Shown: piece by piece, positions 20,152-23,216 of the stretch
Position numbering within the stretch: the stretch's first letter is position 1
How the letters are laid out: every line of letters starts with the position of its first letter
Assembly (NCBI GenBank): GCA_020852035.1
Contig: JADZBR010000241.1
Location: 1-45,732 of the forward strand
Length of the DNA stretch: 45,732 nt
Direction: 5' to 3'
Source: Caulobacteraceae bacterium
GTDB taxonomy: Bacteria > Pseudomonadota > Alphaproteobacteria > Caulobacterales > Caulobacteraceae
Made by a program: the position numbers and the translations under genes
The notes under the pieces: model-generated
Databases searched by the model: none
What the model was told of the DNA's origin: nothing
Seen by the model: only the letters and a program-made list of their open reading frames with translations

Positions 20152-20166
20152 TGCGAACCATTCGCA
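20152..20166. promoter_or_regulatory. Predicted Fur box
   Basis: TGCGAACCATTCGCA is a 7-1-7 dyad whose halves match at six of seven positions (TGCGAAC against TGCGAAT read from the other side). It agrees with the Fur-family pattern TGATAAT-N-ATTATCA in its alphaproteobacterial GC-shifted form. It lies 65 nt before the GTG of the PepSY gene and 53 nt before the start of the divergent membrane protein gene. A weak promoter-like pair, TTGCCA (20126) and TAGTGC (20149) with 17-nt spacing, would place the site over the -10 region, as expected for repression by iron-loaded Fur. The promoter is tentative; the dyad itself is clear. Confidence 0.6.
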
Positions 20167-20230: not shown

Positions 20231-20890
20231 GTGCCGGCCAACGACGCCATCGACGAGCGCGCGCGCGCCAAGAGGAAGGCGCAGGCGCGCGCGGCGCTGA
20301 TGCGCCAGATGGTCCAGTGGCACTGGATCAGCGCCGCCATCTGCCTGATCGGCATGCTGCTGTTCTCGATCACCGGGATCACGCTCAACCACGCGGGCCA
20401 GATCGCCGGGGCGCCGAAGACCACCAACCGCGAGGCGGTGATGCCGGCCGCGCCGCTCAGCGCCGTCGCCGCCGCCGAGCCGAGGCAAGGCGCGCTGCCC
20501 GACGCCGCCCGCGACTGGCTGCGCGGCGAACTGAAGGTCCGCGCGCCGAAGGACGCGGCCATCGAGTGGTCCGACGGCGAAGCCTACGTCGGCCTGCCGC
20601 GCCCCGGCGGCGACGCCTTCCTGACCATCGATACGGCCACCGGCGACGTCGCCTACGAGCGCACCGATCGAGGCTGGATCTCCTACCTCAACGACCTGCA
20701 CAAGGGCCGCAACACCGGCCCGGTGTGGAGCTGGTTCATCGACATCTTCGCGGTCGGCACGGTCGTCTTCTGCGTGACCGGCCTGGTCCTGCTGCAGCTG
20801 CATTCCCGGGCGCGCAAGTCGACCTGGCCGCTGATCGGCCTCGGCCTCATCGCCCCCGTGCTGCTCGCCGTCCTGTTCATCCACCTATAG
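20231..20890 (+). CDS. PepSY-associated transmembrane protein, likely electron-transfer subunit
   Basis: A 219-residue inner-membrane protein: helix 1 at about residues 29-52 (WHWISAAICLIGMLLFSITGI), a periplasmic PepSY-like part to about 160, helix 2 at 167-191 and helix 3 at 200-218. The periplasmic part contains AYVGLPRPGGDAFLTIDTATGDV and ends with YLNDLHKGRNTG, typical of PepSY-TM proteins. Histidines near the membrane (31, 54, 157, 191) could bind heme; this is inference. Related proteins occur in ferric-siderophore reduction systems. I chose GTG 20231; the ORF-track start at 20126 would run through the Fur-like site. It is first in the operon; the DUF2271 gene follows after eight bases. 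Confidence 0.82.
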   Translation: MPANDAIDERARAKRKAQARAALMRQMVQWHWISAAICLIGMLLFSITGITLNHAGQIAGAPKTTNREAVMPAAPLSAVAAAEPRQGALPDAARDWLRGELKVRAPKDAAIEWSDGEAYVGLPRPGGDAFLTIDTATGDVAYERTDRGWISYLNDLHKGRNTGPVWSWFIDIFAVGTVVFCVTGLVLLQLHSRARKSTWPLIGLGLIAPVLLAVLFIHL

Positions 20891-20898
20891 AGTTCCTG

Positions 20899-21414
20899 AT
20901 GCGCCTCGCCGTTTCCGCCGCCCTGCTTTCCGGACTTGCGACCACCCCGGCCCTGGCCGCGGACCTCAACGTCTCCCTGACCATCCCGACGTTGAAGGTG
21001 GCCGAGTATCACCGGCCCTACGTGGCGGTGTGGATCGAGAAGCCCGACCAGACGGCGGTGAAGACGCTCGCCGTCTGGTACGACACCAAGCTCGCCAAGC
21101 GCGAGGGCGAGACCTGGCTGAAGGACATGCGCCAGTGGTGGCGCCGGGCCGGGCGCGAGATGAAGATGCCGGTCGACGGCGTCACCGGCGCCACCCGCGC
21201 GCCGGGCAAGCACCAGATCAGCTTCAAGGGCGGCGCCAACCCGCTGGGGAACCTGCCGCCGGGCCAGTACAACCTGGTGGTCGAGGCCGCCCGCGAGGTC
21301 GGCGGCCGCGAGATGCTGAAGGCCCCCTTCCAATGGCCGCCGGCCAAGGCCGCCACCGCCTCCGCCAACGGCTCCAGCGAGCTTTCGGCGATCGTCGTCT
21401 CCACCAAGCCCTAG
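20899..21414 (+). CDS. DUF2271 exported protein with ApbE-type flavinylation motif
   Basis: A 171-residue protein with a Sec signal peptide (MRLAVSAALLSGLATTPALAA). The mature part is beta-rich, as in DUF2271: YVAVWIEKPDQTAVKTLAVWY, WLKDMRQWWRRAG, and a C-terminal VEAAREVGGREML. The stretch PVDGVTGATRAPG fits D-x-x-(S/T)-G-A-T, the motif at which ApbE couples FMN to the last threonine in NqrC, RnfG and other FMN-binding proteins; here that is Thr99. An apbE gene lies two genes downstream. I therefore predict a periplasmic flavoprotein that carries electrons, possibly from the PepSY membrane protein to ferric iron. The domain call is fairly sure; the flavinylation is a prediction. Confidence 0.82.
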   Translation: MRLAVSAALLSGLATTPALAADLNVSLTIPTLKVAEYHRPYVAVWIEKPDQTAVKTLAVWYDTKLAKREGETWLKDMRQWWRRAGREMKMPVDGVTGATRAPGKHQISFKGGANPLGNLPPGQYNLVVEAAREVGGREMLKAPFQWPPAKAATASANGSSELSAIVVSTKP

Positions 21415-21426
21415 AAGAAGCCCGCC

Positions 21427-22230
21427 ATGAAACGCCTCGCCCTCGCCGCCCTCGCCGCCGCCCTCGCCCTGCCGATGAGCGCCGAGGCGCACCGTCAGTG
21501 GCTGTTGCCCTCGATGACCGTGCTCTCGGGCGACGACCCGTGGGTGACGGTGGACGCGGCGGTCTCCAACGACCTGTTCGTCTTCGAACACGTGCCGATG
21601 CGCCTCGACGGCCTGACCATCGTCGGGCCGGACGGCGCCAAGGTGGAGCCGCAGAACGCCTTCACGGGCAAGTACCGCAGCGTCTTCGACGTCCACCTGA
21701 CCAAGCCCGGCACCTACCGCATCGCCAACGCCGGCGTCGGCGTGAACGCCAACTGGAAGCAGGGCGGCGAGACCAAGCGCTGGCGCGGCCCCGCCTCGGA
21801 GCTTTCCAAGGCGATCCCGGCCGACGCCACCGAGGTGAAGATCAACGAGTCCGTCCGGCGCGTGGAGACCTTCGTCACCGCCGGCGCGCCGACCTCCGAG
21901 GCCCTGAAGCCGACCGGCGTCGGCCTGGAACTGGAGCCGATCACCCACCCGACCGACCTCTATGCCGGCGAGGCGGCCAGGTTCCGCCTCGTGATGGACG
22001 GCAAGCCGGCGGCGGGCGTCGAGGTCACGCTCGCGCCCGGCGGGGTGCGCTATCGCGACGACCGCGGGGAGATGAAGCTGCAGACCGACGCCGCCGGCGA
22101 GTTCTCCGTCACCTGGCCCACCGCCGGCTTCTGGTGGCTGGAGGCGTCCGTGCGCGGCGGCCAGTCGAGCATCCCCAACGCCCAGCGCAGCGCCATGTAT
22201 GTCGCCACCGTCGAGGTGCTGAAGAACTGA
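21427..22230 (+). CDS. DUF4198 periplasmic protein
   Basis: A 267-residue protein with a Sec signal peptide (MKRLALAALAAALALPMSAEA). The mature protein starts HRQWLLPSMTVL, the usual beginning of DUF4198, whose members occur with metal-uptake systems; the His at the new N-terminus could be a metal ligand. The rest is predicted beta-sandwich, with an Ig-like C-terminal part (GKPAAGVEVTLAPGG, then TDAAGEFSVTWPTAGFWWLEA). The role in this operon is unknown; binding a metal or handing it to the reductase are possibilities. The ribosome-binding site AGAAG precedes ATG 21427, 12 nt after the DUF2271 stop. Confidence 0.85.
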   Translation: MKRLALAALAAALALPMSAEAHRQWLLPSMTVLSGDDPWVTVDAAVSNDLFVFEHVPMRLDGLTIVGPDGAKVEPQNAFTGKYRSVFDVHLTKPGTYRIANAGVGVNANWKQGGETKRWRGPASELSKAIPADATEVKINESVRRVETFVTAGAPTSEALKPTGVGLELEPITHPTDLYAGEAARFRLVMDGKPAAGVEVTLAPGGVRYRDDRGEMKLQTDAAGEFSVTWPTAGFWWLEASVRGGQSSIPNAQRSAMYVATVEVLKN

Positions 22231-22268
22231 CCCGCATCGCGATCCCGCTCGGCCTGACGCGCGCGAGC

Positions 22269-23216
22269 GTGCGGCCCAGGCCCGGCGCCCTCGTCGACCT
22301 CGGCGGGCCGACGATGGGCATGAGCTGGTCGGCGCGGGCGCTGCTGCCGGCCGGGCTGGCCTCCGACGTGGCGCGGGACGCAGTGCAGGCGCGGCTGGAC
22401 CGGCTGGTCGCCGAGGTCAGCCACTGGGAGCCGCAGTCCGCGCTCAGCCGGTTCAACCGCGCGGACGCGGGCGAATGGGTCCCCCTGCCCGACGATCTCT
22501 GGACGGTGCTGCGCGCCGGGCTGGTGCTGGCGGCGCGCTCGGACGGCGCCTTCGACCCGACAATGGGGCGGCTGGTCGACCTCTGGGGCTTCGGCCCCGC
22601 CGGACCTTGCACCCCCCCCGCCGAAGACGTGGCGGCCGCCGCCCATGCCGCCGCCGGTTGGCGGCGGTTGCGGTTGTCGCCGGCCGACCAGAGCGCCTGT
22701 CAGCCCGGCGGCCTCGCGCTCGACCTGTCCGGCATCGCCAAGGGGTATGGCGTCGACCTTGTTGTCGACACCCTGGCCGGCCTCGGCGTAGCGGCCTGTC
22801 TCGTCGAGATCGGCGGTGAGTTGCGAGGCGCCGGCGTGCGCCCGGACGGCGAGCCCTGGTGGGTGGAGATCGAGACGCCGCCGGACCTGGCGGCGCCGCC
22901 GTCGCCGATCCGGCTGGCGCTGCACGGCCTGGCGGTGGCGACCTCCGGCGACTACCGGCTGATGCGCGAGGTCGCCGGCCGGCGGCTGTCGCACACGCTC
23001 GACCCGCGTACCGGCGCGCCGCTCAGGGACGCCCCGGCCTCGGTCACGGTGCTCCATGAGCGCTGCATGATGGCCGATGCCCTTTCGACCGTCCTGACCG
23101 TGCTCGGGCCGGACGCCGGCATGGCCTACGCAGAGGCCGAGGGGCTGGCCGCGCGCATCCTGACCCGCGACGGGCGCGAGCGGCTGAGCCGCGCCTTCGC
23201 CGCCATGCTCGACTGA
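22269..23216 (+). CDS. apbE: ApbE-family FAD:protein FMN transferase
   Basis: Predicted to transfer FMN from FAD onto a threonine of a target protein, most likely the DUF2271 protein of the same operon. Family motifs are GGPTMGMSW, LSRFNRADAGEWVPL, FDPTMGRLVDLWGFG, the core DLSGIAKGYGVDLVVD, VEIGGELRG, ATSGDYR, LSHTLDPRTG and ADALSTVLTVLG (metal site). Length (315 residues) is normal for the catalytic domain, but no signal peptide or lipobox is seen, unlike exported ApbE lipoproteins. The start is uncertain: GTG 22269 lacks a Shine-Dalgarno, while CTG 22227 overlaps the DUF4198 stop as CTGA and has GAGG upstream, giving a start MTRIAIPLG. Confidence 0.92.
   Translation: MRPRPGALVDLGGPTMGMSWSARALLPAGLASDVARDAVQARLDRLVAEVSHWEPQSALSRFNRADAGEWVPLPDDLWTVLRAGLVLAARSDGAFDPTMGRLVDLWGFGPAGPCTPPAEDVAAAAHAAAGWRRLRLSPADQSACQPGGLALDLSGIAKGYGVDLVVDTLAGLGVAACLVEIGGELRGAGVRPDGEPWWVEIETPPDLAAPPSPIRLALHGLAVATSGDYRLMREVAGRRLSHTLDPRTGAPLRDAPASVTVLHERCMMADALSTVLTVLGPDAGMAYAEAEGLAARILTRDGRERLSRAFAAMLD

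Follow-up and report, generated by a model that had tools for sequence, protein, structure and literature searches.

The locus described here raises the question of where a protein that appears destined for export acquires a covalently bound flavin when the modifying enzyme encoded in the same operon appears to stay in the cytosol. It lies in the window (a stretch of 45,732 nucleotides of contig JADZBR010000241.1, from a draft Caulobacteraceae genome of 392 contigs and 88% completeness), where profile matches place apbE fourth in a same-strand run, after the genes for PepSY_TM_like_2, DUF2271, and DUF4198 proteins (Table 1); the next gene found after apbE encodes a Mur ligase on the opposite strand. 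In the literature that we found, as far as the accessible text of these sources extends, this pairing of an exported substrate with an enzyme that appears to be cytosolic goes unremarked. It touches both on where flavinylation takes place and on how FAD gets to ApbE, a route that a 2025 review calls obscure (PMC12052999).

With PepSY_TM, DUF2271, DUF4198, and ApbE together, the window shares its four gene families, and its acceptor motif, with the PepSY-like flavinylation clusters of Méheust et al. 2021 (PMC8238504). Flavinylation is called extracytosolic in that study, whereas the window ApbE appears signal-less. The first screen of the study dropped genes without a predicted signal or lipidation site; we found no remark on signal-less ApbEs in PepSY/DUF2271 clusters in the accessible text of the paper, whose supplement may tabulate signal calls. 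In Caulobacter crescentus, which belongs to the Caulobacteraceae like the window's host, the operon CC_3059-3063 (CCNA_03155-03159) has DUF2271, DUF4198, and ApbE in the window's order behind a membrane protein; it differs in CC_3063, a sulfite-reductase-type flavoprotein, of which the window has none directly after apbE.

Table 1. Features of the operon and its upstream region, in window coordinates
Feature	Position	Strand	Remarks
Fur-box-like palindrome TGCGAACCATTCGCA	20152..20166	+	upstream of operon
PepSY_TM_like_2 membrane protein	20300..20890	+	PF16357 E 5.3e-78, PF03929 E 6.6e-12; start codon uncertain
DUF2271 protein, 171 aa, predicted exported flavinylation substrate	20899..21414	+	PF10029 E 8.2e-53
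Sec-type signal peptide MRLAVSAALLSGLATTPALA of DUF2271	20899..20958	+	by inspection
ApbE flavinylation motif DGVTGAT, GACGGCGTCACCGGCGCCACC	21175..21195	+	codon of Thr99, very probable acceptor, 21193-21195
DUF4198 protein	21427..22230	+	PF10670 E 6.7e-61
ApbE FAD:protein FMN transferase, no recognisable signal peptide	22227..23216	+	PF02424 E 1.8e-77
R-I-A-I-P, window form of conserved N-terminal RVLIP element	22233..22247	+	operon-type ApbE

The initial annotation had described the second gene product as an exported DUF2271 protein sharing an operon with apbE, and each part of this description is borne out. The PF10029 profile scores 178 bits against it (cut-off 27.3), with positions 2-135 of 136 covered, and inspection reveals a hydrophobic Sec-type leader with an ALA-ADL cleavage-like site. 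Phenylobacterium supplies most of its closest matches in the genome collection. The AlphaFold2 model is mostly beta (mean pLDDT 90.4), with helices at residues 66-76 and 78-85 and a later strand at 103-110, and is read as a beta-sandwich, in line with the literature. A fold search with this model against the PDB gave no match below E = 0.001, a sequence search against the PDB returned weak matches only (FlgD and others), and a phage search did not find DUF2271. Weak partial DUF2271 matches were also seen in proteins of ~250 residues; the one inspected (L184:4880-5638) looks FlgD-like, and these were set aside.

The motif reads D93 G94 V95 T96 G97 A98 T99 in frame with the ATG at 20899, the exact fit to D-x-x-(S/T)-G-A-T that had been annotated, and is unique to DUF2271 among the four operon proteins; in the model, Thr99 sits in the loop 86-102, between the helices and the strand. 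When this protein is shuffled, the pattern D..[ST]GA[ST] arises in 0.09% of cases. According to PMC12052999, ApbE requires only the seven-residue motif, and Méheust et al. 2021 (PMC8238504) reported DUF2271 to be an ApbE substrate with a conserved [S/T]GA[S/T]. In their work, the DUF2271 protein of Amantichitinum ursilacus is flavinylated by its cognate ApbE on the last Thr of the motif, and a Thr-to-Ala exchange abolishes the modification; because of this homolog, Thr99 is very probably the flavin acceptor in the window protein. The annotated prediction of FMN on Thr99 is thus very probably right but is not new, DUF2271 flavinylation having been known since 2021; covalent FMN at this residue is a prediction that matches published work and can be transferred to the present genome with confidence.

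Conservation was followed in 154 DUF2271 domains; the 159 sequences behind them comprise the window and 158 loci, and some loci of the two collections may share a genome. Because similarity and profile searches supplied the sample, it is biased toward relatives of the window protein. All 154 domains have Thr or Ser at position 99. Asp93 is kept in 0.89 and Gly94 in 0.85 of the weighted sequences; Gly97 and Ala98 are variable, and the G-A ahead of the acceptor is not constant even where apbE lies alongside (SAAT, SSAT, SGPT, TSPT). A separate ApbE is encoded in the same stretch for 124 members, nine are fused to ApbE, and 21 lack a local apbE; the strict motif is present in 77/124, 0/9, and 12/21, respectively, and the Ser/Thr acceptor is retained in all three groups. 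The suggestion that the motif is confined to members with apbE nearby fails in that form, since 21/21 without one keep the Ser/Thr. In the genomes of the latter that were checked, ApbE is encoded elsewhere.

In the ApbE-DUF2271 fusions, the acceptor is the sole strictly kept motif position, as if motif recognition were relaxed when the two form one chain. The fusions at L156, L157, L159, L160, L177, L178, and L180 keep the acceptor Thr in a degenerate motif (xRPT, xKPT), and a leader is visible in most of them. A second, divergent DUF2271 group (L161-L174) has the acceptor in TGAS or SGAS, with a signal-less ApbE ("MSKTSTDL...") mostly ~2.1 kb off and no PepSY_TM match in the stretch.

All signal-peptide calls rest on a simple in-house rule and on visual inspection. 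The rule flagged a leader in 132 of 145 stand-alone DUF2271 homologs; most of the 13 that it missed contain proline, and most look genuine. Among the 124 stand-alone ApbEs adjoining DUF2271, eight leaders were flagged, four of them genuine on inspection (three from Luteibacter, and L208) and four not; by rule and inspection combined, about 120 have no plausible signal. Some Cupriavidus ApbE leaders (VLIPVALSA) are moderately hydrophobic. All 17 ApbEs located away from DUF2271, from genomes without apbE beside DUF2271 or genomes of the divergent group, have by inspection leaders with a lipobox-like Cys. The window ApbE, whose active-site His in SHTLDP aligns with the 6NXI His that reads Gly in 6NXJ, starts LTRIAIPLGL, with neither a leader nor the signal or lipobox of periplasmic and lipoprotein ApbEs; its AlphaFold2 model (mean pLDDT 95.9) has residues 1-10 at pLDDT 93 and a strand at 3-5. 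An RVLIP-type segment is found in 88 of the 120 signal-less operon ApbEs, mostly 23-26 residues ahead of GxxMG, and a supported 54-row group of the tree (98/95) contains all 50 RVLIP rows. Mean Cys counts per ApbE domain are 3.7 and 2.9 for the two groups that lack a signal, 0.67 for each of the lipoprotein and stand-alone signal groups, and 2.4 for the fusions (pooled comparison, p = 1.5e-7, uncorrected for phylogeny, which the counts partly follow); Cys is absent from 152/154 DUF2271 and 121/137 DUF4198 proteins.

Because the export signal is absent, the N-terminal strand is conserved, and Cys residues are many, we infer that the operon ApbE is cytosolic and acts on the DUF2271 precursor. 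Judging localisation from sequence features, we regard it as on balance probable that DUF2271 is flavinylated in the cytosol before export, and we lean, a little more hesitantly, toward the general form of this reading, in which a signal-less RVLIP-strand ApbE subfamily, widespread in Alpha- and Betaproteobacteria, would flavinylate cytosolic DUF2271 precursors and the FMN-bearing chain would leave via Sec. SecYEG is reported to be able to pass bulky attached groups (PMC6028853); we found no demonstration of Sec export of an FMN-bearing chain in the accessible parts of the literature. The ApbE of the Klebsiella pneumoniae fumarate reductase system likewise has no signal peptide, but its substrate is cytosolic, whereas that of the window is exported (PMC12052999), and the Paracoccus denitrificans homolog Pden_3291 is, like the window enzyme, predicted to be cytoplasmic (PMC7660919). 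Counting against the cytosolic reading, the fused ApbE-DUF2271 proteins have leaders and an intermediate Cys content. Furthermore, the published experiment with A. ursilacus was run with a "signal peptide-truncated" ApbE (PMC8238504), so its authors took that cognate enzyme to be exported.

It is conceivable, though unlikely, that ApbE enters the periplasm through an unrecognised signal, or riding with an exported protein, and that DUF2271 is flavinylated in that compartment. Most of the ApbEs that have been characterised are periplasmic (PMC12052999), and a periplasmic route exists within this family, because the four operon ApbEs noted above clearly bear signals; moreover, 16 of 120 DUF2271 partner leaders are Tat-like (all MRR[LM]LTV), which makes co-export of a folded pair imaginable in those cases. 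The remaining 104, including that of the window protein, do not match the Tat pattern, however, and with Tat-like leaders in just 16/120, Tat export of folded, flavinylated DUF2271 was rejected as a general route. In contrast to a cleaved leader, the N-terminal segment of the enzyme is conserved in its sequence and its spacing, and the model shows it as an ordered strand; the enzyme is also rich in Cys where its exported partners are not.

Pairs of cytosolic ApbE and cytosolic substrate do exist, the Klebsiella fumarate reductase being one (PMC12052999), so the signal-less ApbE might modify some unknown cytosolic protein, with the DUF2271 motif modified incidentally or never. We consider this improbable: ApbE and DUF2271 share one operon, the acceptor residue is invariant, and the DUF2271 of a relative is flavinylated by its cognate ApbE (PMC8238504). 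Co-occurrence is also complete, with ApbE present in 78/78 DUF2271-bearing genomes searched and, in an even phylum sample of 399 genomes, in 65/65 DUF2271-positive versus 226/334 other genomes (Fisher 1.3e-10, uncorrected for kinship; the 65 were counted by listed rows and include the window's own genome). A search for two other substrate families, FMN_bind and NqrB/RnfD, found neither in 24 Caulobacteraceae and other Alphaproteobacteria genomes with one ApbE each, and control genomes were positive.

That the start codon of the window ApbE has been misjudged and a signal peptide lies upstream is very improbable. In its favour, no stop closes the frame for a long way upstream, and the apparent initiation codon, CTG, is a rare one; the probable start is this CTG at 22227, overlapping the DUF4198 TGA stop (22227-22230), with a GTG at 22269 as the next candidate. 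The upstream frame, however, overlaps DUF4198. Of the 88 RVLIP-type relatives, 37 have ATG as their nearest start-like codon, 11 TTG, 11 GTG, and 7 CTG, and 22 lack one within six codons; 20 have an in-frame stop at most 15 codons upstream of the motif and hence no space for a leader. RefSeq places the start of one Methylobacterium RVLIP-type ApbE at the same point (VRRVLIP). Finally, it is scarcely credible that DGVTGAT matches by chance and that Thr99 is unmodified, for although the motif is short and [ST]GA[ST] without the Asp appears in 2.8% of shuffles of the window DUF2271 protein, the Ser/Thr acceptor is invariant in 154 homologs and has a direct experimental precedent (PMC8238504).

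As to function, the TGMRAANNNTTYKCA pattern has a single match within the window (0.01 expected in shuffles), and similar palindromes precede PepSY in many, not all, Caulobacteraceae relatives. The C. crescentus operon is Fur-repressed, with Fur binding at CC_3059 seen by EMSA (PMC3751524), insertions in it reduce fitness under EDTA (PMC12004947), and PepSY/DUF2271/DUF4198/ApbE clusters have been linked to iron (PMC8238504). We think it reasonably probable that the operon in the window is one for iron starvation that serves electron transfer in the periplasm, probably to reduce ferric iron, and that its ApbE works in the cytosol, flavinylating the DUF2271 precursor ahead of export. ApbE would transfer FMN from FAD to Thr99 of the cytosolic precursor, which would then be exported with FMN already attached; the PepSY membrane protein, a putative transmembrane electron donor, would deliver electrons to this FMN from across the inner membrane, and their transfer to ferric iron would fall to DUF2271, perhaps together with DUF4198. 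If true, cytosolic flavinylation would bypass the FAD-supply question that a periplasmic ApbE poses. In a separate observation, on a Methylobacterium currus plasmid (L245:274-6302), the operon follows genes for a TonB-dependent siderophore receptor and an Fe2+-dependent dioxygenase.
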